Below the pieces are notes generated by a model. It was not told where the DNA came from. It saw only the letters and a program-made list of their open reading frames with translations, and made no database searches. The position numbers were made by a program, and so were the translations under genes. A DNA stretch of 47,606 nucleotides from Verrucomicrobiia bacterium. Lineage in GTDB: Bacteria > Verrucomicrobiota > Verrucomicrobiia > Verrucomicrobiales > Akkermansiaceae. The stretch is from positions 1-47,606 of the forward strand of contig JAUIGV010000039.1 of assembly GCA_030432565.1 (NCBI GenBank). Reading direction: 5' to 3'. Every line of letters starts with the position of its first letter. The stretch's first letter is position 1. Shown here piece after piece: positions 9,806 to 47,308 of the stretch.

Positions 9806-10366
9806 CTAAGAACCCAAAAGCTCCCGGCGCGTGAAGATGCTCACGACAGGCACTCCCTCGGCCTCAATGGCGGCTCGTCCGCCCTCTTCCCGGTCCACCA
9901 GCACGAGGCAAAAGACGACCTCGCCACCCGCTGCACGAATGGCCTCGATCGCCTTCAAGGTGGACCCGCCGGTCGTGATGACATCGTCAACCACCACCAC
10001 CTTGTCGCCTTCTTTGAAATTCCCCTCGATCTGCTTCCCCCGACCGTGGCCTTTCGGTTCCTTGCGGATATTGAAAACCTGCAAGGCCTTCTCATCCCCG
10101 GCGCTTGCCATTCCCACTACCAGTGAGATGGGATCCGCTCCCATCGTCATTCCACCAATCGCATCGACTTCAAGATTCTCCGCCTCTATCCTTCCCTTTA
10201 CCAATTCCCAACCTGTTTCGCCAATCCAACCCGCTCCCCGGTTGTCCAAAGCGGTCAGCCGACAATCGACATAGAGATCGCTCTTCTTCCCGGAAGCGAG
10301 GGTAAAATCACCCGTCCGTACCGACTTCTCCAACAACATTTCCTTCAAATCTTCCTTCGCGCTCAT
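9806..10366 (-). CDS. pyrE: Orotate phosphoribosyltransferase
   Basis: This 186-residue protein catalyses the step from orotate and PRPP to orotidine 5'-phosphate in pyrimidine synthesis. It has the usual family length, an early T-G-D-F-T-L-A-S-G-K-K-S-D segment, and the PRPP-binding loop V-V-V-V-D-D-V-I-T-T-G-G-S-T. The N-terminal sequence S-A-K-E-D-L-K-E-M-L after ATG 10366 fits the fold; a longer in-frame start at 10402 would add a poorly supported 12 residues. The enzyme is cytosolic. The YXWGXW lipoprotein gene ends 121 bases upstream on the same strand; the two functions are unrelated. Confidence 0.95.
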   Translation of the reverse strand: MSAKEDLKEMLLEKSVRTGDFTLASGKKSDLYVDCRLTALDNRGAGWIGETGWELVKGRIEAENLEVDAIGGMTMGADPISLVVGMASAGDEKALQVFNIRKEPKGHGRGKQIEGNFKEGDKVVVVDDVITTGGSTLKAIEAIRAAGGEVVFCLVLVDREEGGRAAIEAEGVPVVSIFTRRELLGS

Positions 10367-10487
10367 CGACTCGATGTTGCGTGACCTGGATGCCAAACTC
10401 AATCCCTACAAAAAAAATCTCCGCATCGCGGGAGCGGTCCAACCTTGCGGCGACCCTGTATATACATCTTCGCCAACGGACGGCGCA

Positions 10488-12290
10488 CTACTTGCCACGC
10501 CGCCGACTCGGATCGGCTTTCTTTCGCTGGCGTTCGGTTTCCTCGCGCTGTCTTCTTTGCATCTCTTCCCGTTGCCTTCTTTGCTCTTCAATCCGCTGGC
10601 GCTGTTCCTCGGCTTTTCTTTGACGTGCGGCTTCTTCCATGCGACGGCGCGCGGCTTCCTCACGCTGTTTTTTCTGTTCTTCGATTCTGCGGCGCTGCTC
10701 TTCCGCTTCTTTTTGACGTTTCGCGTCCTCGCGCTGACGACGCTGCATTTCCTCGCGGGCCCTTTGCTGTGCCGCAATTTTTTGGCGCTGCTCCTCCGCT
10801 TCTTGATTGCGACGGGCCACTTCGCGTTGCCTTTTCTGCTCTGCGATTCTTTGACGGCGCTCCTCTTCCTCCTGCTTGCGTTGGGCTGCTTCACGCTGCT
10901 TGCGTTGCATTGCTTCCCGCGCACTCCTTTGTGCTGCGATGGCTTGGCGTTCCTCTTCCTCCTCCTGTTGTCGCCGAGCTACTTCTCGTTGGCGACGTTG
11001 CTCTTCAATTTTCCGATGCCTGGCAGCTTCTCTTTGAACCGCCTCCTGTCGGGCTCTGGTCTGTTGCCGGGCCATCTCATCCTGCTGCTGTCGGCGGGTG
11101 ATTTCGGTCTGAACGTTTCGCTGCGCGTTGGCGTCTTCGTTTGCCTTCGGAGACGGCTGCCGACCCGTGGCCCGCGACCTTGGCTCGGGCCGGATCATGT
11201 CGGGTTTGGAACGCTCCTGGCCGGCTTCTTCCGCGATATTCCTGTTCCGCACCCGGCCAGCCTCAAGTTGCCGCATTTGTCGGAAAGCCTCGATTGCCCG
11301 GGGGTCGGTATCCTTGCTTCTTTGCACTTCCACCGCAATCTTTTGAGCCCGGGTTTGGAGCTGTCCGGTGGATCGCACTTTGGGCGCGTTCACGATCAGC
11401 TCATTACCATCGACTCGGTTCCGGAGCTTCACCGAAACCGGCAGGCGCGAAAAATCACGGGATCGTCTGATCTGACAAAATGGGAGTCGGCGACCCAAGC
11501 GGCCTGAAAGATCCCGGTAAACCGGCCCGCCGCAGAAGATCCGATTGTTATGAAAGCGGATCCTCGTGATGTTACGGGTGGCATTGAAACAGGCCGTAAT
11601 TTGACTGACCGAAAGACAATACGAAGCGATCGAACGATCAAAGTGATGCGACTGCACAAAGCTGTAGCAGGAGGCGGTTATTCCGTAACTTCTCTCGACG
11701 CTGGAGTCCCACTCGCTGTCTGGGAATGCAAGAGTTTCAGGCGGGAGTGGGGCCCAGCCAATGTAGTGGTCATTGCTGCGCCACGAACACCAATTCGGTG
11801 CCCATTCGGTGCCCGGGACCCAGACCCAGCCCTGGGTTTGTAGCTTGGCCCACCGACCATAATGATAAGTGGCCCATCCAAAATCTTCGCTCGAAACCCA
11901 GGTCCACCCTTGGTCGCTGTAGACCCACTGGCCCCGCGTGTAAGGGGCCCAATTCACTTCGCGTGAAGCGAGGGGTTGCCAAACCGGGCCATACTCATTT
12001 GTCTCATACCAAGTGCCCATGGGAGACAAGGCTTTGTGAAAGTAGTCGTAGTCAACGACCACTTCCGGCGTGTCGGTAGATTCGGGAGCGAGAGCCGGCT
12101 CTCCAGGCACCGGAACGTCGAGTGGCGCGGGCTCAAACGCTTTCCCTTCGTCGGCCACTTCTTTTTCATCCTCACGGATTTCGAGGCGCAGAGGTTCTTG
12201 TTTGTTGGCCGCTTGATCCGTCCCGGAGGAATCACAAGAGACAAACGAAATCAGGCTGGAAAGAGCAAGTGAGTAGCAAAGGAGTTTCAT
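10488..12290 (-). CDS. YXWGXW (DUF6600-type) lipoprotein with long charged helical tail
   Basis: A 600-residue envelope protein. Residues 1-18 form a lipoprotein signal peptide ending in F-V-S-C19. An acidic, proline-rich linker follows. About residues 80-190 carry repeated aromatic motifs of the YXWGXW/DUF6600 type (M-G-T-W-Y, Y-G-P-V-W-Q-P, G-Q-W-V-Y, W-A-T-Y-H-Y-G-R-W, H-Y-I-G-W-A-P-L). Roughly residues 395-600 are an almost uninterrupted, Arg/Glu/Gln-rich helix or coiled coil with a net positive C-terminus. The tail DNA is low in complexity, so its other strand gives long leucine-rich shadow frames that I do not accept. ATG 12290 was chosen because the signal peptide starts there; an in-frame ATG at 12341 is less likely. 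The function is unknown; an envelope or DNA/polyanion-binding role is only a guess. Confidence 0.85.
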   Translation of the reverse strand: MKLLCYSLALSSLISFVSCDSSGTDQAANKQEPLRLEIREDEKEVADEGKAFEPAPLDVPVPGEPALAPESTDTPEVVVDYDYFHKALSPMGTWYETNEYGPVWQPLASREVNWAPYTRGQWVYSDQGWTWVSSEDFGWATYHYGRWAKLQTQGWVWVPGTEWAPNWCSWRSNDHYIGWAPLPPETLAFPDSEWDSSVERSYGITASCYSFVQSHHFDRSIASYCLSVSQITACFNATRNITRIRFHNNRIFCGGPVYRDLSGRLGRRLPFCQIRRSRDFSRLPVSVKLRNRVDGNELIVNAPKVRSTGQLQTRAQKIAVEVQRSKDTDPRAIEAFRQMRQLEAGRVRNRNIAEEAGQERSKPDMIRPEPRSRATGRQPSPKANEDANAQRNVQTEITRRQQQDEMARQQTRARQEAVQREAARHRKIEEQRRQREVARRQQEEEEERQAIAAQRSAREAMQRKQREAAQRKQEEEERRQRIAEQKRQREVARRNQEAEEQRQKIAAQQRAREEMQRRQREDAKRQKEAEEQRRRIEEQKKQREEAARRRMEEAARQRKAEEQRQRIEEQRRQREEMQRRQREETERQRKKADPSRRRGK

Positions 12291-32498: not shown

Positions 32499-35051
32499 AT
32501 GTCAGATTTTCAAGAAGCCCTCCTCTTCGAGCGGCTCAAGCACCACCTGCCCACGCAGGCCGCATTGAAGGATTTCGTTCACCACAATCCCCTTCATTCC
32601 TTCCAGGAGATGGAGTTCTTCAAGGCCATCTTTTCAGCCTCGAAGATCTTCGGAATCAAGCCGACCTTCAGTATGAATGAATACCGCCGGCTTCACCAGG
32701 CCGGGCGGATTGATTCGGAGGTTATCGAACGCATTATCCGGCAGGAGAAGGGAGGTGATGATGTCGACGCGTGGCAGGAAAAGCTTCTCCGCCGAGGCTA
32801 TCCCCACGTTTACGAACCCAAGGTCGGCCGACTTCGGTCGCGGTGGAATGCCGAGTTAAAATGCTCGCTCGAGGACCGCGTGCAACCGCTCCTTTTCCGC
32901 ATCATTTGCAGCTACCTTGACCAGGGGATTTCGCTCTGGCCCTTTCCTTTCGAGGACCAGGGCGTGGTCGAAGCGGTTAGGAAAATTGAGAAGAATAGCT
33001 TCGCCAGTTTCTTCCGATCCAAGCGGGCGCGGAAGCTCTTGCTGGATGGTGAGGCCAGCATGCAAGACCTCCTCAAAATCGTGGTGGGCCGCGAGGAACT
33101 CTACGAACAATACCTGTTCGATCAGCAGTTTTCCCACAAGGGATGGAGCGGTATTATTAATGCGATCGAGGACCAGCCGGAGACTCTTTTTTACCAGAAG
33201 AAGATTGATCTACGCGGGTTCATCATGCTGGAACTTCTCCTTGAGATCGATGCCATCGATCAGGAGCTGGGCGAAGGCTGGAAACCGCTTGGTGAAAGAT
33301 CGGGAGTGATTCCCGAGGACTATTTTGAAGAGATCCCGCTGGGTGAAATGGAAGAGGTTCTTAAGCTCTGGCAGCTTGCTTTCGAGTGGAGCTATTATGA
33401 TGAAGTCCTCGCCGGGGTCGGCTACTTGAACAAGTTGAAGCGTCGTCCTCATGACAATCAGAAGAGCTTTCAGGCGGTCTTTTGCGTTGATGATCGCGAG
33501 TGTTCGATTCGACGCTACTTCGAAGAAGTTGATCCCAACTGCGAAACCTATGGCGCGCCCGGGTTCTTTGGCGTCTCGATCTATTTCCAACCCTTCGGCG
33601 GAAAGTTTTTTGAGAAGAACTGCCCGGTGCCAATCACCCCCAAGCATGTCATTCAGGAGCTGGAAGCCAAGACGCCGCATGGCTCGGTGCCTTTCCATGA
33701 TAAGCACTCGCACACCTTCTTTCGGGGGCTGTGGTGTTCCCTGTCACTTGGACTGACGTCGGGCGCGCGTATGATTTTGGATCTCTTCCGCCCCACCATG
33801 CGGGCGGACATTGCTGATGCCTTCGCGCACATGGACATAAACGGGAAGCTTCACATCGAATGCGATGATCCGGAGCAAAAAATCAATGGCGTTCAGGCCG
33901 GTTACACTGTGCCGGAGATGGCTGATGTGGTGGAAGGAATCCTGCGGGGAATTGGCCTCATTTCTGATTTCGCCGAGATGGTTTATATCGTGGCTCACGG
34001 CAGTAGTAGTGCCAACAATCCCCACCACGGTGCCCACGATTGTGGAGCTTGTAGTGGGCGACCTGGCGCGCCGAATGCCCGTGTCTTTGCCCACATGGCG
34101 AATCACCCAAGAGTAAGGGAGATCCTGAAGGGCCGGGAAATCGACATTCCCGAATCGACTCACTTCCTCCCTGCGATGCACGACACCGCGAGCGATGAAA
34201 TCGGTTACTATGACCGGATTCAGCTCTCCGAGAAGGGTCGCGAGAATCACAAAGCCAACCTGGTCAATATCGAGAAAGCTCTCGATCTCAATGCCAAGGA
34301 AAGAGCTCGGAGGTTTGCCTCCATCGATGTGAATCAGGACATTCGGAAAATCCGGAGGGCGATCAAAAAGCGTTCGCATTCCTACTTTGAGCCACGCCCT
34401 GAACTGGGTCATGGAACCAATGCCCTGTGCTTCATCGGAGCTCGACATCGCCTCAAGGGCCTCTTCCTGGATCGACGGGCTTTCCTGCAATCCTATGATT
34501 ATCAACAGGATCCCGAGGGAGAGGTTTTGGCCAATGTTCTGGCTCCGCTCCCGGGCGTCTGCGGAGGGATTAACCTTGAGTATTACTTTTCGCGAATGGA
34601 TATCGAGAAGATGGGGGCTGGCACCAAGCTGCCCCACAACGTTGTGGGACTCATCGGAGTAGCTAACAGCAGCGACGGCGATTTGCGACCGGGGCTGCCT
34701 TTGCAGATGATCGAAAACCACGATCCGGTCCGCCTCCTTATGTTGGTGGAACATCGACCGGAAGTGGTGCTGAGAATTCTCAAGGCCTCGCCTGAAAATT
34801 GCGAATGGTTCAGCAAAGGGTGGCTGCACCTCGTGGTATCTTCGCCCGATGATGGCGAACTCTACCATTTCAAGGATGGTGGTTTCCAACCCTACGAGCC
34901 GCTGGCTCAAGTTTCGACGGTCGATGACATTACCAACACGATCCATTCTCATCCGAAGATGAGGTCGAATCACATCTTGGATGCCACGCGGGAGAATATT
35001 CCGGTTCACGTGTACGACGGATCCTCTAGAAAAACCGAACTGACAAAATAG
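32499..35051 (+). CDS. dabA: DabA, inorganic-carbon transporter catalytic subunit
   Basis: An 850-residue member of DUF2309, DabA. With DabB it forms an energy-coupled system that turns cytosolic CO2 into bicarbonate. Known beta-carbonic-anhydrase-like zinc-site residues are conserved: C329-V-D331-D-R333 in F-C-V-D-D-R-E-C-S-I-R-R, and H500 and C515 in the region V-A-H-G-S...H-D-C-G-A-C-S-G. The 15-residue spacing between H500 and C515 matches the reference enzyme (H524/C539). The N-terminus F-V-H-H-N-P-L-H is also characteristic. It follows the SulP gene by 12 bases and precedes dabB by 5 bases. No RuBisCO or carboxysome gene is visible, so supply of bicarbonate for carboxylases is the likely use. 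Confidence 0.95.
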   Translation: MSDFQEALLFERLKHHLPTQAALKDFVHHNPLHSFQEMEFFKAIFSASKIFGIKPTFSMNEYRRLHQAGRIDSEVIERIIRQEKGGDDVDAWQEKLLRRGYPHVYEPKVGRLRSRWNAELKCSLEDRVQPLLFRIICSYLDQGISLWPFPFEDQGVVEAVRKIEKNSFASFFRSKRARKLLLDGEASMQDLLKIVVGREELYEQYLFDQQFSHKGWSGIINAIEDQPETLFYQKKIDLRGFIMLELLLEIDAIDQELGEGWKPLGERSGVIPEDYFEEIPLGEMEEVLKLWQLAFEWSYYDEVLAGVGYLNKLKRRPHDNQKSFQAVFCVDDRECSIRRYFEEVDPNCETYGAPGFFGVSIYFQPFGGKFFEKNCPVPITPKHVIQELEAKTPHGSVPFHDKHSHTFFRGLWCSLSLGLTSGARMILDLFRPTMRADIADAFAHMDINGKLHIECDDPEQKINGVQAGYTVPEMADVVEGILRGIGLISDFAEMVYIVAHGSSSANNPHHGAHDCGACSGRPGAPNARVFAHMANHPRVREILKGREIDIPESTHFLPAMHDTASDEIGYYDRIQLSEKGRENHKANLVNIEKALDLNAKERARRFASIDVNQDIRKIRRAIKKRSHSYFEPRPELGHGTNALCFIGARHRLKGLFLDRRAFLQSYDYQQDPEGEVLANVLAPLPGVCGGINLEYYFSRMDIEKMGAGTKLPHNVVGLIGVANSSDGDLRPGLPLQMIENHDPVRLLMLVEHRPEVVLRILKASPENCEWFSKGWLHLVVSSPDDGELYHFKDGGFQPYEPLAQVSTVDDITNTIHSHPKMRSNHILDATRENIPVHVYDGSSRKTELTK

Positions 35052-35056
35052 TGACC

Positions 35057-36925
35057 ATGGAACTTTTAATATCGATCCTCGTGGTTGCGCCGATTTTGGC
35101 GCTTCTTGTCGGCTTCTGTTTTTCCAATCACCAGGAAAAGCCAATTTTCTCTTCGGCGATCACCGGTGTCGGAGTGAACTTCGTAGTGGCTTTGACCGTG
35201 CTGGTGCTCTGGCTGCAGGGAGGGATGGAATCGGTCTTCGTGAAAGGCCCGGTGCTATACTACGCCAAGGAAACCGAGTTCGCGCTGAGCTTCTTCCTGG
35301 ATGGTTATGGCCTCTCTTACATCCTGCTTTCCACCTTCCTGACGGGGATCATTATCCTCTTCAGCCGAACTTATCTTCACCGTGAGAAAGGCTTCAAGCG
35401 CTTCTTCAATATTCTGAAGTTTTTCTACTGTGGATTAATGGTGCTGCTTCTGGCGGGCAATCTTGAGATCCTCTTTGTAGGTTGGGAGATCATTGGGGTG
35501 ACCTCCTTTTTCCTGATCAGTTTTTATCGCGAGCGCTATTTGCCGGTGAAGAATGCGGTTAAGGTGGTGTCGCTTTATCGGGTTGCCGATATCTCCATGC
35601 TCCTTGGAATTTGGGTGTGCCACCACTACTTCGGGCGGAGCCTGAACTTTGGCGAACTCAATGGATTACACAATGCCCAGCCACACATCATGGCCCATGG
35701 ATTTTACGAGTTCTTTATTCCTGCGACCTTCTTGTTGGCGGCGATGGTGAAGTCGGCACAGGTACCATTTTCCTCCTGGCTGCCGCGCGCGATGGAAGGT
35801 CCGACAACTTCGAGCGCGATCTTTTACGGTTCGCTCTCGGTGCATATCGGAGTGTTCCTGTTGATTCGGACGTCGCCGCTCTGGGAGGACAATTCAGCCT
35901 TCCGCTGGTTGGTCGGTGGCGTGGGTTTGGTGACCTGCTTTTCAACCACTCTCATTGGGCGGGTGCAATCGACGATCAAGACGCAGATCGCTTATTCCTC
36001 GGTGGCGCAGATTGGGCTGATGTTTATCGAGGTGGCGATGGGATTCTATGGCTTCGCGATCATTCACTTTGTTTGCAACGCCCTCTTCCGAAGTCATCAG
36101 CTCCTGGTGTCGCCTTCCGTTTTGAATTACCAGATTCACAACCAATTCTTCCACTTCTCGAAGCCAGCGGGGCAGGGGACGGCGGGGCTTTGGAATAAGG
36201 TGAAGCTGTCTTGTTACAGCCTTGGGGTTCAGGAGTTCCGGCTGGATCGCTTCATGTTTCAATCCTTCTGGCGTCCGCTCAAGAAGGCTGGAAACTTCTT
36301 CACCTTCCTGGGAACGCAGAATACTTACATCCTGGCGCTTCCGCCATTTCTGATTGGCGTTTATGCCGCTTATCATAAAGCAGTTGTCCCGGAATCGATC
36401 CTGAAGTTTCTTCCTGAAGGCTTCGCACTGGTGGGATTGGTCTTCATTTTAAAGGCCTTCGTCGAGAGGCGGTCCGCGCTTAATGCCTGGGTCTTGATCG
36501 TGGTGAACCAACTTTACCAATCTCTCGCCTTCAGCTTTAACGAGGAGTTCGATATGAGTCAGGTTTATCTCTATCTCAGCGGAATTTCGGTGTCGGCCTT
36601 CATTGGGATCTGGGTTCTTAACCGGATGCGTAACAATGGCGAAGACATCTCATTGGCGAAGTTCCACGGCCATTCCTACGAGTATCCAAGGCTGGCTTTC
36701 CTATTTGTGTTTGCCTGCCTGGGTCTTGCTGGATTCCCGATCACGCCGACTTTCATCGGTGAAGATTTGATGCTCGGTCACATTCACGAGAACCAGTTTC
36801 CGCTGCTCATTCTGATTGTCCTGAATCTTATCATGGATGGTCTCGTGATCTTCCGGATCTATTCGCGGCTCTTTCTGGGACCTCATGAAAAGGGGTATCA
36901 CGAAACCGCTTACCGTTCGTCGTAG
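35057..36925 (+). CDS. dabB: DabB, NuoL-like proton-channel subunit of the DAB system
   Basis: A 622-residue membrane protein of the NuoL/MrpA-like proton-translocating family. It contains the antiporter-core pattern V-K-S-A-Q-V-P-F-S-S-W-L-P-R-A-M-E-G-P-T and many hydrophobic helices. Next to dabA it is best read as DabB, the cation-conducting partner that couples ion motive force to DabA. ATG 35057 was chosen; a GTG at 35051 overlaps the dabA stop. Its 3' end overlaps the convergent rhomboid gene by 16 bases. Confidence 0.93.
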   Translation: MELLISILVVAPILALLVGFCFSNHQEKPIFSSAITGVGVNFVVALTVLVLWLQGGMESVFVKGPVLYYAKETEFALSFFLDGYGLSYILLSTFLTGIIILFSRTYLHREKGFKRFFNILKFFYCGLMVLLLAGNLEILFVGWEIIGVTSFFLISFYRERYLPVKNAVKVVSLYRVADISMLLGIWVCHHYFGRSLNFGELNGLHNAQPHIMAHGFYEFFIPATFLLAAMVKSAQVPFSSWLPRAMEGPTTSSAIFYGSLSVHIGVFLLIRTSPLWEDNSAFRWLVGGVGLVTCFSTTLIGRVQSTIKTQIAYSSVAQIGLMFIEVAMGFYGFAIIHFVCNALFRSHQLLVSPSVLNYQIHNQFFHFSKPAGQGTAGLWNKVKLSCYSLGVQEFRLDRFMFQSFWRPLKKAGNFFTFLGTQNTYILALPPFLIGVYAAYHKAVVPESILKFLPEGFALVGLVFILKAFVERRSALNAWVLIVVNQLYQSLAFSFNEEFDMSQVYLYLSGISVSAFIGIWVLNRMRNNGEDISLAKFHGHSYEYPRLAFLFVFACLGLAGFPITPTFIGEDLMLGHIHENQFPLLILIVLNLIMDGLVIFRIYSRLFLGPHEKGYHETAYRSS

Positions 36926-37584
36926 CGGGGAATATACCGGTTGGCCAGGGTGGCCAGCAACATGCCGGCGACGAAGCCGCCGATGTGGGCGCTGTGGCCG
37001 ATATTGCTGGGCGGACCCATGATGCCGAGGAAATCCAACGCAATCCCGATCACACCGGTGGCGGCCAGTTGGGTGGAGTTGACGGGACGGGCCAGAGGCC
37101 AGACGTGGGAATCCGGGCGGGGGTGGAGGAAGGCCAAGCCGAAGTAAAATCCTTCCACTCCCATCACGCCGCCGCTCGCACCCAGACACGGGGTCGTGCT
37201 ACGGGGGTCGAACAGAATATGCCCGACCGTTCCGCCGATGACGGTAATGACGAAGGCGGCCACCATCCAGCGCCAGCCGCAAAGTTCGGTGACAACGACG
37301 CCAAAAATCCAGAGGAAGAGCATATTACCGGCCAGATGCCCTCCGTTGGCATGAAGAAATCCCGCAGTCAGGGAGGTCGCGAGGGTTTCCAGAACGTCTC
37401 GCGATAGATCTCCGTTTGAGGCTGCTTCCCAGGCTTCAACGACTTTGGCCGGAGTCATCATCCATTTCTCGGAACGTTGCCCAAATTCCCCGGTGCCGTG
37501 CATCCAATCAAGAACGGTGATGATTGAAATCACTCCGATCAGGACGAGCACCGGGACTCTTTTTTCTATCACGGGATCAAGCAT
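36910..37584 (-). CDS. Rhomboid-family intramembrane serine protease
   Basis: A 224-residue rhomboid with about six membrane segments. The catalytic serine is S137 in G-A-S-G-G-V-M-G and the catalytic histidine H200 in A-H-I-G-G-F-V-A-G. H-A-N-G-G-H-L-A-G-N-M near helix 2 also fits. Rhomboids cut transmembrane substrates within the bilayer. It overlaps the upstream truncated-haemoglobin gene by 8 bases, so both should be on one transcript, and it converges with dabB with a 16-base overlap. No substrate is evident. Confidence 0.92.
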   Translation of the reverse strand: MLDPVIEKRVPVLVLIGVISIITVLDWMHGTGEFGQRSEKWMMTPAKVVEAWEAASNGDLSRDVLETLATSLTAGFLHANGGHLAGNMLFLWIFGVVVTELCGWRWMVAAFVITVIGGTVGHILFDPRSTTPCLGASGGVMGVEGFYFGLAFLHPRPDSHVWPLARPVNSTQLAATGVIGIALDFLGIMGPPSNIGHSAHIGGFVAGMLLATLANRYIPRYDER

Positions 37585-37972
37585 GGTTGCAGGGAGGTTC
37601 CGGCTGGTTGCGCATGAAGTCGGCGACTTGGCCGAAGAACTCCATCACCGAGTTTCGAATGGTGTGGTCTGCAATGACGTCATCGGCCGCTTCGCCCATC
37701 AGTTTCATCCAGCGATCCCGCTCGGCGATGCCGATTTTAAAAGGCATGTGGCGTCCGCGCAGGCGGGGGTGGCCTCGCTTTACGAGATAGCGCTGGTCCG
37801 CTCCAAATCGAAAGAGCAGAAAGTCGCGCAGCCGCTCCTCGGAACCTTCCCAGTCATCCTCCGGATACATTGGCCCAACGAGATCGTCCGCCTTCATCTT
37901 TTCATAAAATTTGGCGGTCAGCCGGGTGAAGCCCTCTTCCCCCAAAGTCGCGTAGATCAATTCCTCGTTCAT
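37577..37972 (-). CDS. glbO: Group II truncated haemoglobin
   Basis: A 131-residue truncated haemoglobin of the trHbO group. The expected haem-site residues are all present and at matching positions to the mycobacterial protein: Y23 (B10), Y36 (CD1), proximal H75 (F8) in R-G-R-H-M-P-F and W88 (G8) in E-R-D-R-W-M. The G-H-P-R-L-R segment before H75 is a group signature. Such proteins bind oxygen or handle NO and peroxides; the exact role here is unknown. The 3' end overlaps the rhomboid start by 8 bases. A divergent 128-base gap separates it from the kinase gene and must hold two promoters. Confidence 0.92.
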   Translation of the reverse strand: MNEELIYATLGEEGFTRLTAKFYEKMKADDLVGPMYPEDDWEGSEERLRDFLLFRFGADQRYLVKRGHPRLRGRHMPFKIGIAERDRWMKLMGEAADDVIADHTIRNSVMEFFGQVADFMRNQPEPPCNHA

Positions 37973-38100
37973 TCGTCGTTGTCCTCGAAGATTGACGTGC
38001 GATCTTCGAAAATCAAGGATTGCCGCTTTTCGCCTGATTCGTCATTGTTCCGCCCTTCCCCTGACCCTTTTTCAAACCTTTTGATATATTTTCTGATCCT

Positions 38101-40845
38101 ATGAGCGAACCAATCCAATTCGATCCACCGGACCCCTCCGAGTTGAGCAAGCTTCTTGACGGTTACGAGGTGACCTCGCTGATTGCAACCGGCGGCATGG
38201 GTGCGGTTTACAAAGCGACCCAGCTTTCCCTCGACCGGGATGTGGCGATTAAGCTGCTTCCCAAGGAATTTGGTGATGACCCTTCGTTCCGGAATCAATT
38301 TCATGCCGAGGCCCGCTCGATGGCCAGGCTCAACCACGTCAACCTTATCGGAATCTACGATTTTGGCGAGGCCGATGGGATGCCCTATATCGTGATGGAA
38401 TTGGTCGCGGGTAAGTCGCTCTACTATTCCAGTTACGGAAAGGCGATCGATCAAGCGACCGCTGCCGGGTTGGTCATCGGAATCTGCCGTGGACTTTCGC
38501 ATGCCCATCAGGCCAACATTATCCACCGTGACATCAAGCCGGCGAACATTCTCCTCGATCCCAATGCCAAGCCCAAGATCGGCGACTTTGGCCTCGCGGC
38601 TGCCGGTGATTCCGAGCATTCGGAGGATGGTCCTGTTTTTGGGACTCCGGGCTATGCTGCGCCCGAGATTATTTCCAATCCCAAGGCGATTGGGGTCCAG
38701 TCCGATATTTATGCAGTCGGGGTGATTCTCTACGAACTCCTCACCGGCAAGATGCCCGAGGAGCCTGCGAGTCCACCTTCGTCAATCGCCAAATGCGACC
38801 GGAGATTTGATCCGATTTTCAAAAAAGCGACCCGTCGCAATCCGGCCTTGCGCTATCAATCGGCCCAGGAATTGGCGGATGATCTTGAGAAGATTCTCCC
38901 CAACATTGGAACGAGTGGGCAAAGGACGGTTCGCACAGGTGCCGATTCAAAAAGCAAGGCACCCGCTACGACCTTGAAGCGCCGGATGACCTCCGAAAAG
39001 GATTCCGACGGAACGGATTCTGGAAAGCCCAAGCTCGTCCCTCTCCCCAAAGGCGAAAGCGCTCCCAAGTCGCGTCTCAAGCCACTGCCCAAGTCATCTC
39101 CCGATGATCAGGGTGGCAAGCCATCGGCTCCGCCGGCAGCTGCGGCTCCTGCCGCGGTTTCCGTGAAGGCAGGTAGCAATTGGCCGATCATTCGAAACCT
39201 CCTCATCATCGCGATTTTGATTCCGATCATCATTTTCACGTGGGGTCTCTATCAAGACAAACAGGCTAAAATTAAAAAGGAGCGCGAAGCCAAGGAACTG
39301 AAAGAGAAAAACAAGGAACTGGAACGCAAGGCCATGCTGGAGCAGGCCAAGCGTGACGAGGAAAAAAAGGCGCGTGAGGCCGAGGAGAAAAAAGCCCTCG
39401 AAGCCAAGCGTGAGAAAGAGCGCCAGCGCCTGCTTGCCATCGAAAATGCCAAGACTCCAATGGAGCGTCTCGCCGAATATCGGACGGCCCTCTACAATGG
39501 ACGCCGTGATCGTTTTCCGGACAACACGATCGATCGCAGCAGTCATTTTCTCTTCTTCGTAAAAAGCCCCATGACTTGGACCGAAGCTTCGGAGTTTGCC
39601 GAAGTCCATGGCGCTCACCTTGCCACGCCAACCACCCAGGCTGACATTGATATCCTTTCCAATGACATGAGCGAACTCGACTTACGCCGCGTCTGGATCG
39701 GTGGAGGAGCCCAAGGGAAGGGCGGCTGGACCTGGGTCACCGGGGAAGAGTGGAAATTTAAAGATCCCGGAACGACCCTCGGTTCCTGTGCCTCCCTGAG
39801 TAATTCCGGAGTGATCCGGGCACGACCCAATGCCGAGAAGAATCCCTTTGTCATCCAGTGGTCCAAGGATGGCCAGAACCCGGGTTCCATTGCCTCACAG
39901 CTTGAACGCCTTGTGCCCACGCTGGACTCTCCCAGTCCGGCCTGGCCCCCAACCACCGTGTCTCATGAAAATCGCCATTTCCTGCTCGTCCAAAAGCCGG
40001 TCTCCTGGAACGAGGCAGACTTGATTGCAAGCTCCGCCGATGGCCATCTTGCGGTCTTCTCCGATCCGCTCGAAGGAATCTTTCTTCGCAAGTTTTTTGA
40101 CTCATCCCTTCTTCTCGAGCAGTCCGTTTGGTTGGGCGGCCGGAAAAAGGATGATGTCTGGTATTGGTCGAATGGTGAGCCTTGGGAAAAAGCCTCATGG
40201 GCACCGAATTCCCCCGATGGCGGCCCGCTCGATCGAGCACTGCGTTACCTCAAAGGATCCGCTGGAGTGGGTTGGGATGACGCCAACCCCAAGGAGGGGA
40301 ATGCTGACGGTTTTATCATCGAATGGAGTACGGATGCCGATGGCGCTCCGGCCGTGACCAATGAAAATCCGAATATGGCCAACGGCCAGCTTGCCAAGCT
40401 TCGTGGAATTGGCCGCCGCCTGGTCACCAAGGAAGTTGAGGATTATAATAAGTATCTTCTTGGGAACCGTGACTACTTTGTCTCCGACGTGAACACCTGG
40501 TTCCGCCTGCTTTCCAAGAATAACAGCCGGGCTTTCGAGGCTGCCTATCAGGCTCTGGAGGACAAGCTCCCTGCCGATGGTGATCTTTCCGGAGAAATTG
40601 ACCTCAGCGGGTTTCCTGCCGAGGTGCATCAGGATTTTGCCAAGGCGCGGGAGCGACAGGACCGCAAGGCCAAAGAGCTGAATACGAAGCTGGAAGCGCT
40701 ACGACAAAGTTACCTCAAAAAGTTGCTGAACCTGCGCCAAACTTTTGAAACAGGAGGCTTGAAGACGCAGGTGGGATCAGTCGATGAAGAAATCGAGGGC
40801 GTGGGGCAGGATGCCGCCGGACTCCGTGCCCACTTCGGTCTCTAA
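38101..40845 (+). CDS. Hanks-type Ser/Thr kinase with two C-type-lectin-like ectodomains
   Basis: A 914-residue membrane-spanning kinase. The kinase domain (about residues 20-285) is complete: glycine loop A-T-G-G-M-G-A-V-Y, K51, H142-R-D144-I-K-P-A-N and D162-F-G. A disordered, Pro/Ser/Lys-rich linker leads to one membrane helix near residues 362-382. A highly charged coiled coil (about 385-445) follows. Two lectin-like domains then lie at about 480-605 and 620-745 (S-H-F-L-F-F-V...W-T-E-A; W-N-E-A-D-L...W-L-G-G), ending in a helical domain. Lectin-like folds here are Cys-poor. The topology suggests an outside ligand sensor that signals inside. No PASTA repeats are present. Two small membrane orphans follow after a 32-base gap. 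Confidence 0.92.
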   Translation: MSEPIQFDPPDPSELSKLLDGYEVTSLIATGGMGAVYKATQLSLDRDVAIKLLPKEFGDDPSFRNQFHAEARSMARLNHVNLIGIYDFGEADGMPYIVMELVAGKSLYYSSYGKAIDQATAAGLVIGICRGLSHAHQANIIHRDIKPANILLDPNAKPKIGDFGLAAAGDSEHSEDGPVFGTPGYAAPEIISNPKAIGVQSDIYAVGVILYELLTGKMPEEPASPPSSIAKCDRRFDPIFKKATRRNPALRYQSAQELADDLEKILPNIGTSGQRTVRTGADSKSKAPATTLKRRMTSEKDSDGTDSGKPKLVPLPKGESAPKSRLKPLPKSSPDDQGGKPSAPPAAAAPAAVSVKAGSNWPIIRNLLIIAILIPIIIFTWGLYQDKQAKIKKEREAKELKEKNKELERKAMLEQAKRDEEKKAREAEEKKALEAKREKERQRLLAIENAKTPMERLAEYRTALYNGRRDRFPDNTIDRSSHFLFFVKSPMTWTEASEFAEVHGAHLATPTTQADIDILSNDMSELDLRRVWIGGGAQGKGGWTWVTGEEWKFKDPGTTLGSCASLSNSGVIRARPNAEKNPFVIQWSKDGQNPGSIASQLERLVPTLDSPSPAWPPTTVSHENRHFLLVQKPVSWNEADLIASSADGHLAVFSDPLEGIFLRKFFDSSLLLEQSVWLGGRKKDDVWYWSNGEPWEKASWAPNSPDGGPLDRALRYLKGSAGVGWDDANPKEGNADGFIIEWSTDADGAPAVTNENPNMANGQLAKLRGIGRRLVTKEVEDYNKYLLGNRDYFVSDVNTWFRLLSKNNSRAFEAAYQALEDKLPADGDLSGEIDLSGFPAEVHQDFAKARERQDRKAKELNTKLEALRQSYLKKLLNLRQTFETGGLKTQVGSVDEEIEGVGQDAAGLRAHFGL

Positions 40846-40877
40846 AATCCATCAAGCTGCTGCGCTTGCATGACGGG

Positions 40878-41402
40878 ATGAAACCAGGACTCATCATTTC
40901 AGCAATCGTTGGGATTTTCCTTGGTTATCTCACGGGTGGCAGCTTTTTGGTTAAACTCGTTGGTTACTTCGTTTTTCTTCCCCTTGGTGGGTTGAGCCTT
41001 GTTTTATACCTCCTCGCAATTCTGTATGATCGTAAACAGGGGAGAACGAAAGATTCCGGCAGGCCTGTGGTTCCAACGTCCCTCCTGATTGCCGCCTTCT
41101 TCCTATCCGCATTCCTGGCAGGGGAGGGAATTTTTCGCTATCGCCGCTACGAGGTGGAAAGTTTTGTGAAGGAAACGATACCGCTTTTGGACGCTTACAA
41201 AGATGAGTTCGGAGAGTATCCGTCAAAGCTTCAAGAAGTCACCGACCGCAGGTTTCCCCACTACTTTCGGGATCGCCGACCCTTTGATCAACCGTATTTC
41301 TCGGATGGGGGAGAGTTCACTTTTTCCTACATGCCTCCGGATGCCATGATCAGCGGTTTAATGCTGACCAGTTCTGATCGCAGGTGGAGCCGCGCCGATT
41401 GA
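40878..41402 (+). CDS. Membrane protein of unknown function downstream of the kinase
   Basis: A 174-residue protein with about three hydrophobic segments in its first 80 residues, followed by a soluble domain with V-K-E-T-I-P-L-L-D-A-Y-K-D-E-F-G-E-Y-P-S-K-L-Q-E. That part recalls a pseudopilin-like pattern, but a family cannot be assigned. TTG 40866 is an alternative in-frame start. The next orphan begins 6 bases after its stop, and the kinase ends 32 bases upstream, so the three may be one operon. Confidence 0.65.
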   Translation: MKPGLIISAIVGIFLGYLTGGSFLVKLVGYFVFLPLGGLSLVLYLLAILYDRKQGRTKDSGRPVVPTSLLIAAFFLSAFLAGEGIFRYRRYEVESFVKETIPLLDAYKDEFGEYPSKLQEVTDRRFPHYFRDRRPFDQPYFSDGGEFTFSYMPPDAMISGLMLTSSDRRWSRAD

Positions 41403-41408
41403 GTATCC

Positions 41409-41771
41409 ATGAAACAGAAAATTGTTCTTCTTGCTCTCGGATTATTGATCGGAGTGGGCGGGACTTTTTTGATTTCACCGGCCATCGAGACAGCGCGTGA
41501 ACGTCGAATTGTGGAAGAAGCGGTGCGCAAGTATGGCCTTCCCCAACTTCCGAATGGGTCCATTGTGAAATATGCCTATCACAATGATGAATTCCTGATG
41601 GAATGGTATGGTTTTGAGATTCAAACAACGTCCGCCCAGGCAAAAATCTGGATAGCCGGGGCTGATGAGCGACCGGGTAATGGCAAGAGGAGAACCCGCC
41701 CGGCGGAAGTGAAATGCACGCGTCGTGATGATGCAAACATCGAAGTGCGGATCTTTGAATCCCATAAGTAG
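41409..41771 (+). CDS. Signal-anchored protein of unknown function
   Basis: A 120-residue protein with one N-terminal hydrophobic segment (about residues 5-22) and a basic, beta-prone outer part. No family is recognised. It begins 6 bases after the preceding membrane orphan and probably belongs to the same operon. Confidence 0.6.
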   Translation: MKQKIVLLALGLLIGVGGTFLISPAIETARERRIVEEAVRKYGLPQLPNGSIVKYAYHNDEFLMEWYGFEIQTTSAQAKIWIAGADERPGNGKRRTRPAEVKCTRRDDANIEVRIFESHK

Positions 41772-44881: not shown

Positions 44882-45054
44882 CGCGGGGCGATCTTATTCT
44901 TTAATGGGGAGGAGGTCACGAAAGGAGCTTCGGATTGTGAAAAAATTGTGGAGAGGTCAAAATTAGGGCTGGCGGGTGGCGGATTTGAATCGCTATGGTC
45001 GCGGGCCGATCGGGAAGTCACCCCGGCAGGTTTTACGAATCATCATTCCGATCA
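44882..45054. promoter_or_regulatory. Divergent promoter region (inferred)
   Basis: This 173-base gap separates the zinc-ribbon membrane gene (minus) from the first von Willebrand A gene (plus) and must hold promoters for both, unless transcription enters from elsewhere. No clear -10/-35 pair was identified by eye. Confidence 0.3.
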
Positions 45055-46125
45055 ATGACCGAGAACGAAGCTGCATCAATTTCCCGACCTTCGGCGCGGT
45101 CAATCGTGAAACGCCAGCAGCGGACCGCGACCTTGGTGAGCTTGATCACGGCACTCCTGCTCATGGTTCTCATTGGCCTCATCCTGGCGGTGATTTTGAT
45201 GGCGGTGAAGCCGATTGAGCAACCGTCGCTGGTGGCCTACTCCGGGGTATCCGAGCCCGAGCAGAAGGTGAAGCAGCCCAAGGTTCAAACCAACGTCCAG
45301 CGCAAGCCCTCGGCTCCAAGTATGGCGGCTTCCAGGATGGTGGTGGCGAACACCGAATCACCGACCTCGATTCCGGTCCCGGAGATCGTGGTCGAGGACG
45401 TTTCGATGGATATCGGGGTGGGAGAGGATTTTGGGGAAGGGTGGGGCGATGGGGAAGGATTTGGAAGTGGAGGTGGCTCAACCTTTTTTGGGCAGACTTC
45501 GACCTCCGAGCGTTTGGCTTACGTCATCGATTACTCGGCCTCGATGAAGGGGCAGGGGCGCGATACGCTTATGCGGAAGGAACTGTCCGATTCATTGCAG
45601 AAGATGCAAAATGGCTTGAAGATCGGGATGATTTTCTTCGCCGGCCCGGCCTGGGTGGCGGGAGACAAAGTAAAGATGATCAAGCAAAAGGAGGCCGTAA
45701 TCGATCCGCCCAAGGGGAAAAGTTTCAAGTGGAAGACCACGGGAGGAGCCCACGGATGGCAGCCCGACGGACCCAAGCAAAAAGCGCCGTGGTGGGAGAT
45801 CGATGATCGCGAGGTCAAGAGGCTTCAGAAAATTGTCAACGAGACGAAGTTGGTTTGGGGAACAATTTGGCATCATCCGATTCACATGGCACTCGATATG
45901 GACCCACCGCCGCAAACGATCTATTTCATGACCGATGGTAGCGCGAGCGGCTCGGCAAAATGGGCCCAGGAAGTTGGGGAACGTGCCAAAAAGATGGGCG
46001 TGGTTATCAACTGCGTGGCCCTGATGCACCCCAAGGCCAAGGCGGATCTCAAAACAATTGCCGACATGACCGGAGGGATGCTCACCATGGTGAATGCCAA
46101 CGGAAAGCGCGAAGACATCAAGTAG
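45055..46125 (+). CDS. Membrane-anchored von Willebrand A protein (first of tandem pair)
   Basis: A 356-residue protein with one N-terminal membrane segment (about residues 28-52), a linker rich in Pro, Ser and Val, a Gly-rich hinge (G-W-G-D-G-E-G-F-G-S-G-G-G) and a von Willebrand A domain. The metal-adhesion site D159-Y-S161-A-S163 is intact, and M-T-D-G-S-A later supplies the expected acidic residue. The C-terminal part G-V-V-I-N-C-V-A-L-M-H-P is typical. Such proteins may bind other proteins at the membrane. ATG 45055 gives nearly the same length as the next copy (355). The second copy follows after 115 bases, and sequence identity between them is very high in the hinge region. Confidence 0.85.
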   Translation: MTENEAASISRPSARSIVKRQQRTATLVSLITALLLMVLIGLILAVILMAVKPIEQPSLVAYSGVSEPEQKVKQPKVQTNVQRKPSAPSMAASRMVVANTESPTSIPVPEIVVEDVSMDIGVGEDFGEGWGDGEGFGSGGGSTFFGQTSTSERLAYVIDYSASMKGQGRDTLMRKELSDSLQKMQNGLKIGMIFFAGPAWVAGDKVKMIKQKEAVIDPPKGKSFKWKTTGGAHGWQPDGPKQKAPWWEIDDREVKRLQKIVNETKLVWGTIWHHPIHMALDMDPPPQTIYFMTDGSASGSAKWAQEVGERAKKMGVVINCVALMHPKAKADLKTIADMTGGMLTMVNANGKREDIK

Positions 46126-46240
46126 CCCGCACTTACAGAATCCTTGCTGCACTGCAGGCAGGATGGTCATGGGCTGCCGGTCTATTGAAAGGTGGGGATT
46201 TTCGGCTAAGAATATTCACAGCCAGACGTTCTGAAAACTG

Positions 46241-47308
46241 ATGAGCGAACCTATCCCATCTCCTGTTCCGGCTCAAACGGCAGTGCCGAATCCCCGTGCG
46301 ATTTTAAGGCAGCAGCAGCGGACCGCGACTTTGGTCAGTTTGATCACGGCTCTTCTTTTCATGGTTTTGATCGGGCTGGTTCTCGCGGTCATTTTGATGG
46401 CGGTGAAGCCGACCGAGCAGCCCAGCCTCGTGGCTTACACCGGTGTTTCGGAGAAGAAGACCAAGGTGGTTGTTCCCAAGGTGCAGACGAATGTTCAGCG
46501 CAAGCCGTCGGCTCCAAGCATGGCGGCTTCCAGGATGGTGGTGGCAAATGCCCAGGCTCCGACCTCGATTCCGGTCCCGGAGATCGTGGTGGAGGATATT
46601 TCAATGGACATCGGGGTGGGAGAGAATTTTGGGGCCGGCTGGGGTGACGGCGATGGTTTTGGTGGTGGCGGTGGCTCGACTTTTTTTGGGCAAAGCTCCA
46701 ATGCCGAGCGCGTGGTTTACGTGATCGATTTCTCGTCTTCGATGAAGAGGGATGACCGCCATAAATTGATGCGCGCCGAGCTAACCGAGTCGTTGAGCAA
46801 GATGCGGAATGGCTTGAAGCTGGGCATGATCTTCTTTGCCGGCCCGGCGTGGGTGGCAGGCGACACCGTCAAGGGAGGAGTCATCACGACGCCCAAGGGC
46901 AAGAAATACAAGTACAAGACCACCGGAGGTCACGCCAAGTGGATCCACGATGGTCCCAAGCGGCAGGTGCCCTGGTGGACCATTGATGACAAGGAGGTCG
47001 AGCGGATCACCGGGATTGTGAAGACCGCGCCCCTGAATTCCGGAACGGTCTGGCATCTACCCTTGAACATGGCACTCGATATGAAGCCGGCTCCGCAGAT
47101 GATTTACTTCATGACTGATGGGCTCGCGAGTGGTTCGTCGCAGTGGGCCGAAGAGATTGGCAAGCGCGCCAGGAAAATGGGCGTGACCATCAACTGCGTG
47201 GCCCTCATGCAGCCCAAGGCCGAGAAGGACCTCAAAACAATGGCTGAAATGACCGGCGGCCAGGTGACCATGGTTGATGCCAAGGGCAAGCGGAAGCATT
47301 TGAAATAA
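46241..47308 (+). CDS. Membrane-anchored von Willebrand A protein (second of tandem pair)
   Basis: A 355-residue paralogue of the preceding gene with the same order: one N-terminal membrane helix, Pro/Ser-rich linker, Gly-rich hinge (G-W-G-D-G-D-G-F-G-G-G-G-G) and a von Willebrand A domain with an intact D-F-S-S-S metal-site motif. The first about 20 residues differ from copy one, while the membrane segment, linker and hinge are nearly identical, including long identical DNA runs. This suggests duplication followed by gene conversion, or strong constraint. The exact partner is unknown. A secreted-protein gene begins 27 bases downstream. Confidence 0.85.
   Translation: MSEPIPSPVPAQTAVPNPRAILRQQQRTATLVSLITALLFMVLIGLVLAVILMAVKPTEQPSLVAYTGVSEKKTKVVVPKVQTNVQRKPSAPSMAASRMVVANAQAPTSIPVPEIVVEDISMDIGVGENFGAGWGDGDGFGGGGGSTFFGQSSNAERVVYVIDFSSSMKRDDRHKLMRAELTESLSKMRNGLKLGMIFFAGPAWVAGDTVKGGVITTPKGKKYKYKTTGGHAKWIHDGPKRQVPWWTIDDKEVERITGIVKTAPLNSGTVWHLPLNMALDMKPAPQMIYFMTDGLASGSSQWAEEIGKRARKMGVTINCVALMQPKAEKDLKTMAEMTGGQVTMVDAKGKRKHLK

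Follow-up and report, generated by a model that had tools for sequence, protein, structure and literature searches.

The question raised by this locus is which of its neighbours, if any, belongs with a protein kinase of 914 residues encoded on contig JAUIGV010000039.1 of a Verrucomicrobiia bacterium (family Akkermansiaceae). The whole stretch of 47,606 nt that was analysed is called the window here. An earlier note, made from the letters of the DNA, had joined the kinase to two small orphan membrane genes just downstream, as partners in what might be a new sugar- or surface-sensing signalling cassette. Our analysis points to the gene on the other side, which encodes a truncated haemoglobin (hereafter globin). 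On balance and with modest confidence we favour a receptor kinase that spans the membrane once and belongs to a family found mainly in Akkermansiaceae; there the globin gene is kept adjacent and is probably co-regulated, and the orphan genes would be accidental neighbours. The parts of the kinase gene are as follows.

38,101 to 40,845, plus strand: lectin-fold receptor Ser/Thr kinase, 914 aa (open reading frame list, profile search)
38,164 to 38,892, plus strand: Hanks-type kinase domain, residues 22-264, catalytic motifs present (profile, alignment)
39,187 to 39,243, plus strand: transmembrane helix, residues 363-381 (hydropathy)
39,256 to 39,450, plus strand: K/E-rich juxtamembrane stretch, coiled-coil-like, residues about 386-450 (sequence by eye)
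39,544 to 39,864, plus strand: C-type-lectin-like domain 1 (CTLD1), residues about 482-588 (profile, model)
39,937 to 40,335, plus strand: C-type-lectin-like domain 2 (CTLD2), residues about 613-745, with SPD and WDD replacing EPN and WND (model, fold search, alignment)
40,372 to 40,833, plus strand: helical cap domain, residues about 758-911 (model, profile and fold searches)

The protein is a Hanks-type Ser/Thr kinase, with the glycine-rich loop (GGMGAV, residues 31-36), the VAIK lysine (K51), E70, HRD (142-144), N149, DFG (162-164) and APE (187-189) all present, and it matches the Pkinase profile at E 1.2e-46 (159.7 bits); the kinase is complete, as had been claimed. PknB structures are the top-scoring solved relatives of this domain, and HRD and DFG are retained in 32 of 34 aligned kinase homologues, the window's protein counted in. 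The kinase domain and single-pass layout are shared with the PknB/PASTA kinases (NF033483), but that profile scores only 272 bits against a curated cut-off of 450, and Pfam at E values up to 1 finds no PASTA domain, so the protein is not placed in that class. Hydropathy gives a single hydrophobic helix followed by an outer part of about 530 residues; the juxtamembrane stretch was called coiled-coil by eye and lies outside the residues modelled below.

Searched against the whole protein, Lectin_C gives E 3.5e-11, with two stretches at a threshold of E 1, the better being residues 490-584. Structure prediction, which the earlier note had suggested as a check, was run on residues 454-914 from an alignment of 41 relatives. 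The AlphaFold model (mean pLDDT, the predicted local distance difference test, 90.9) has two CTLD folds and then a helical domain that contains two helices of about 45 residues. Profile and fold searches place the tandem pair beside mannose-receptor-type tandem CTLDs, and in a model alignment CTLD2 superposes on the mannose receptor with Z 19.2 and 1.9 Å over 129 residues. Because CTLD2 occupies most of the second-look fold list, CTLD1 is assigned from sequence profiles and the model. Lectin_C was found in all 41 family outer parts (E ≤ 1; best 7.3e-18). Both domains are thus C-type-lectin-like by fold and by profile, and the window's two CTLDs hold one cysteine between them; the two cysteine-poor lectin-like domains and the helical cap that had been read from the sequence both stand. 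For the cap, Foldseek gave 0 of 432 matches at E ≤ 0.001 and VIA-align returned generic helical rows (best Z 8.9), so we claim no named fold for it.

This architecture has several partial parallels. Bacteria of the Planctomycetes-Verrucomicrobia-Chlamydiae (PVC) group are described as having many transmembrane kinases that carry accessory domains on the outside, among them TPR, WD40, SUMF1 and DUF1080 (PMC11032199). Those Ser/Thr kinases are laid out, according to the text of that paper, as ours is, with a cytosolic kinase, a transmembrane helix and a mostly periplasmic accessory domain, whereas ours carries tandem CTLDs and a helical cap; in the paper's main text no word begins with 'lectin'. 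The tandem-CTLD and cap kinase extends that class. The mannose receptor, DEC205 and PLA2R share the fold and its tandem arrangement, but the window's CTLDs have no conserved cysteine and no EPN/QPD site and are joined to a kinase. Plant C-type-lectin receptor-like kinases also place a CTLD outside and a kinase inside, with one CTLD and the reverse domain order; they are an unrelated lineage. Cucumber CsTs is one of these, as its published description has it (PMC11489597). In the open-licence literature we found no report of the lectin-kinase architecture or of a truncated-haemoglobin/kinase pairing. Apart from the PASTA kinases, few bacterial receptor kinases have a known ligand, and a widespread tandem-CTLD receptor offers a defined ectodomain for ligand screening.

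Of 145 Akkermansiaceae genomes (family as defined by GTDB), 94 have a match to the outer part at E ≤ 0.001, and 13 of the 16 genera are represented. A wider search for relatives, in which the best 80 of 133 confirmed matches were kept, gave mostly Akkermansiaceae, Roseibacillus or Verrucomicrobiales (L090-L151), named carriers among these 80 being Luteolibacter marinus, Haloferula sp. BvORR071 and Roseibacillus persicicus, the latter represented in culture by strain KCTC 12988 (L113); the last 18 of the 80 are weak (E 5e-12 to 7e-8) and spread over other phyla. Across the order the outer-part profile matches 52 of 239 genomes at E ≤ 1e-20, 36 in Akkermansiaceae and 16 in other families. Fourteen of the 16 match over CTLD2 alone or slightly more, and the other two, G195 and G177 of family f2, match most of the outer part. 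The latter have full-length lectin kinases (L372, 986 aa, and L373, 915 aa, respectively) whose kinase domains share 56% and 55% identity with that of the window's protein, and we therefore dropped the view that the family is restricted to Akkermansiaceae. Among 285 genomes of the class the cap profile matches 17, every one of them Akkermansiaceae, though this sample does not exclude f2, and some related kinases have the cap without detectable lectins. The window's own genome has a second lectin kinase, on contig C64, followed by a double-length UvrA.

In a kinase-domain tree of 76 rows, 69 rows, with or without lectins, form one supported group (100/99); outside it fall five own-genome or local outsiders and two others of L058. 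The group contains at least two paralogue groups, with several deep forks open and eight long branches unsure. Since the globin-side kinases of genus g7 lie in the second paralogue group (26 rows, 86/87, not starred), a single orthologous kinase always standing by the globin is too simple a picture.

Among minor observations on the carriers, genus g16 loci L065, L066, L085 and L086 have lectin kinases in tandem pairs between globin and UvrA. One metagenome-assembled genome titled Akkermansia muciniphila carries the kinase (L131), although its title may be wrong. Genus g3 has the globin in 0 of 20 listed genomes and one marginal ectodomain match (E 4.3e-4).

The features on the upstream side of the kinase are these.

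37,577 to 37,972, minus strand: truncated haemoglobin, divergent neighbour, 131 aa (profile, structure-relative search)
37,973 to 38,100, no strand: intergenic region common to globin and kinase, 128 bp (sequence comparison)
38,013 to 38,023, plus strand: conserved element TCAAGGATTGC, 40 bp from the globin start codon (motif comparison)

The globin gene lies upstream of the kinase gene and divergent from it, 128 bp away. Its product matches PF01152 (Bac_globin) at 83.3 bits against a cut-off of 21, which makes it a truncated haemoglobin. Its solved relatives include that of Thermobifida fusca (2bmm, E 1.4e-28) and HbO (1ngk, E 5.9e-22); it is similar to these in sequence and differs from them by its adjoining receptor kinase. 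Around 40 kinase loci, hand-chosen from the outer-part matches with the genome's own paralogue locus L070 excluded, the globin gene was found within 5 kb at 30, a CAAX protease gene at 20, ThiL at 18, UvrA at 11, rhomboid at 9, sulfatase at 6 and the orphans at 2 each. Of the genes counted, the globin accompanies the kinase most often; the earlier note was silent on it.

A globin lies within 6 kb of the outer part of a lectin kinase in 54 of 88 paired Akkermansiaceae genomes. By genus the figures are g1 18/20, g7 14/15, g9 6/8, g11 3/3, g15 1/1 and g16 12/15, and zero in g2 (one genome), g8 (2), g10 (10), g12 (10) and g13 (2). The g6 entry is a placeholder (G018), so its '0 of 1' is no finding; in G018 itself a kinase and a weak CTLD match adjoin the globin. 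The 88 genomes were drawn from the 94 outer-part carriers; five of the left-out places are unlisted and the sixth is G138, which has a lectin kinase (L374) and no globin and which, if counted in, makes the figures 54/89 overall and 18/21 for g1. Among 55 further globin neighbourhoods, another 17 adjoin a kinase whose catalytic domain matches that of the window's protein, lectins being absent from several; the 17 include three of g6 and two of g8, the g8 contigs ending inside the kinase. Combined, 71 of 109 Akkermansiaceae genomes with a globin have a kinase of the same family within 6 kb of it, and they represent 9 of 14 genera; this count leaves out the globin fragments G049, G075 and G076 and ignores weaker second globins. 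The pair is head-to-head in 54 of the 71, and in 15 genomes of g7 the globin is directly on the downstream side of the kinase; in two g7 genomes (G101, G048) it lies 3-6 kb away, so that 69 of 71 pairs are directly adjacent. For comparison, 20 globins were hand-picked elsewhere in the order, at one or two a genus and across four other families, G195 and G177 included; none of the 20 has a kinase of this kind in the flanks examined. Some flanks of the globin neighbourhoods are short (to 27 bp on one side) and misses there are soft. The recurrent kinase-haemoglobin neighbourhood is a testable candidate for a role of truncated haemoglobin in these bacteria.

Of 23 distinct intergenic regions from close relatives, 22 have the pattern TCAAG[GC][AG]TTGC; among the window and its closest relatives the rest of this 91-128-bp region has diverged. 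The comparison covers the window's genus and named matches of 57-82% outer-part identity; 38 loci were given, 36 regions were obtained, and 13 identical copies (the same genomes in a second collection) were collapsed to leave 23. The sole region without the pattern, in L228, is off by a few bases. The distance from the element to the globin start is 33-44 bp and varies more on the kinase side (40-77 bp); the tighter spacing suggests the globin gene as its target. Its conservation is consistent with a putative function in regulation. The 5.9-Mb genome holds a single exact copy of the 14-mer around the element and four sites that differ from it at one base, and within the window the 14-base element with up to three mismatches is not enriched (3 observed versus 6.1 expected). 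By eye, a similar TTCAAGAATTC can be seen in roughly the corresponding position at several loci of g16 and g8. A scan of viral contigs with a 15-base pattern matched 118 stretches and was uninformative. A sigma-70 promoter reading of the intergenic region was not used; one 9-of-12 site is found there, and 4 such sites in 4.5 kb compare with 2.2 expected.

From these parts we infer how the receptor might work. The N-terminal PknB-like kinase would lie in the cytosol and the tandem CTLDs and helical cap in the periplasm; the outer part is taken to face the periplasm since the cell is Gram-negative, and 'surface' sensing goes one step beyond the data. A ligand from the envelope or the environment (a glycan, an envelope polymer or a protein) would be bound by the CTLD pair, most likely by CTLD2, or by the cap. 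Binding could alter pairing through the juxtamembrane coil, and the paired kinase domains would then autophosphorylate in trans and start signalling. That the globin is co-regulated with the kinase, or functionally tied to it, in Akkermansiaceae has moderate probability; any action of kinase on globin, or of globin on kinase, would be conjectural.

A serious rival is passive synteny, in which an ordinary receptor kinase sits in an old block of genes (ThiL, CAAX protease, globin, one to three kinases, UvrA) and the globin is functionally untied from it. We regard this as quite possible, though we doubt it a little. The globin does belong to an older gene block that also includes ThiL, a CAAX protease and a double-length UvrA, several block genes recur beside kinase loci, and tandem kinases of the same clade are found within the block; moreover 175 of 239 genomes of the order have the globin, the 20 sampled cases elsewhere being without such a kinase, and lectin kinases of a second family exist without it. 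Yet the globin is found at more of the counted loci than any other block gene, the adjacency outlasts changed order and orientation in g7, and the conserved element persists in the shared intergenic region. The block's UvrA (1,837 aa, two UvrA-like halves; L070:11738-17248) recurs near such kinases.

Besides the block, other results weigh against the receptor kinase with a linked, co-regulated globin that we favour. Globin and kinase are apart in g10 (0/10) and g12 (0/12), also in g2, g5 and g14, and in about half of g13. Lectins are missing from the globin-side kinase in g13, as they are in examples from g6, g7 and g9. The g7 pair is tail-to-tail and so has no shared promoter there. The full-length lectin kinases of G195 and G177 have no adjoining globin in the stretch examined, which indicates that the receptor works without the linkage. 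Two g13 relatives (L052:9543-12164 and L054:9372-11900) have HGY or HGH in place of HRD and NFG in place of DFG and are likely pseudokinases; they retain the lectin part, and the globin does not adjoin them. As for the ligand, EPN or QPD stands at the sugar-site position in 0 of 41 outer parts (SPD in 21), and the WND position reads WDD in 19 and WND in 2, both positions being placed by alignment and not from a bound structure. No cysteine is conserved across the 41 CTLD pairs (0-5 per pair), so these are not canonical disulphide-bonded C-type lectins. With neither EPN/QPD nor the conserved disulphides, the domains lack the signature of Ca-dependent sugar binding, and we did not accept an argument for sugar binding from the fold alone; the sugar sensing proposed for the ectodomain is neither shown nor refuted by its sequence. 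A stronger form of the linkage, a receptor-kinase/haemoglobin module, seems unlikely to us: there, one divergent regulatory region would control the lectin-fold receptor and a cytosolic globin, envelope or glycan signals would converge with those of oxygen, nitric oxide or redox state, and the globin would be a substrate or modulator.

The downstream genes are the following.

40,878 to 41,402, plus strand: orphan 1, 174 aa, ATG start, hydrophobic segments, not conserved with the kinase (open reading frame list, hydropathy)
41,409 to 41,771, plus strand: orphan 2, 120 aa, N-terminal hydrophobic segment, among 145 genomes found only here and as the sister remnant (open reading frame list, hydropathy)

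Their description as orphan membrane genes with tiny gaps was accurate. The spacing is 32 bp from the kinase stop to orphan 1 and 6 bp from there to orphan 2; hydropathy finds three hydrophobic segments in orphan 1 and one in orphan 2. Orphan 1 has no convincing Pfam or NCBIfam family (only E 0.25 and 0.058, below curated cut-offs), and orphan 2 has zero matches in either. The same strand and the short gaps speak for a signalling unit made up of the kinase and the two small membrane proteins, a proposal that we nevertheless consider very improbable. Orphan 1 is matched in 7 of the 145 Akkermansiaceae genomes and orphan 2 in 2, and both stand by the kinase at just 2 of the 40 kinase loci, those of the window's genome and its sister G008. 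In the sister a net 626 bp has been lost across parts of both orphan genes, between flanks 93-94% identical, and we read its copies as a deletion remnant. Five other orphan-1 loci have no kinase or globin within the flanks examined (at most about 1.5 kb per side). Absent from nearly all kinase loci and gutted in the sister, the orphans are not partners of the kinase family, and we rejected them as such. Of the proposed cassette, then, the receptor-kinase anatomy and the lectin fold survive and the partnership falls. Least probable of all, to the point of being barely credible, is that the CTLDs are hypermutated antigen sensors on a kinase, as targets of a diversity-generating retroelement (DGR). 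CLec and protein-kinase domains, both found in our protein, are indeed listed among DGR target architectures in the text of PMC10907252, but unlike those diversified proteins the window's kinase comes with no reverse transcriptase (PF00078) in its genome (97% complete) and, in a repeat search within the window, no direct repeat of at least 40 bases at the CTLDs. With neither the enzyme in the genome nor a template/variable repeat pair in the window, this reading was rejected.

Elsewhere in the window, a DabA gene (PF10070) is followed by a membrane protein gene (32,499-36,925); the latter probably encodes its DabB partner, which would put an inorganic-carbon transporter pair near the kinase. 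Two similar tandem genes at 44,995-47,308, of 376 and 355 aa, have DNA repeats 76-80% identical and by eye resemble single-pass vWA-type proteins. The kilobase 10,001-11,000 has an AT skew of -0.39 and a GC skew of -0.24, unlike its neighbours.

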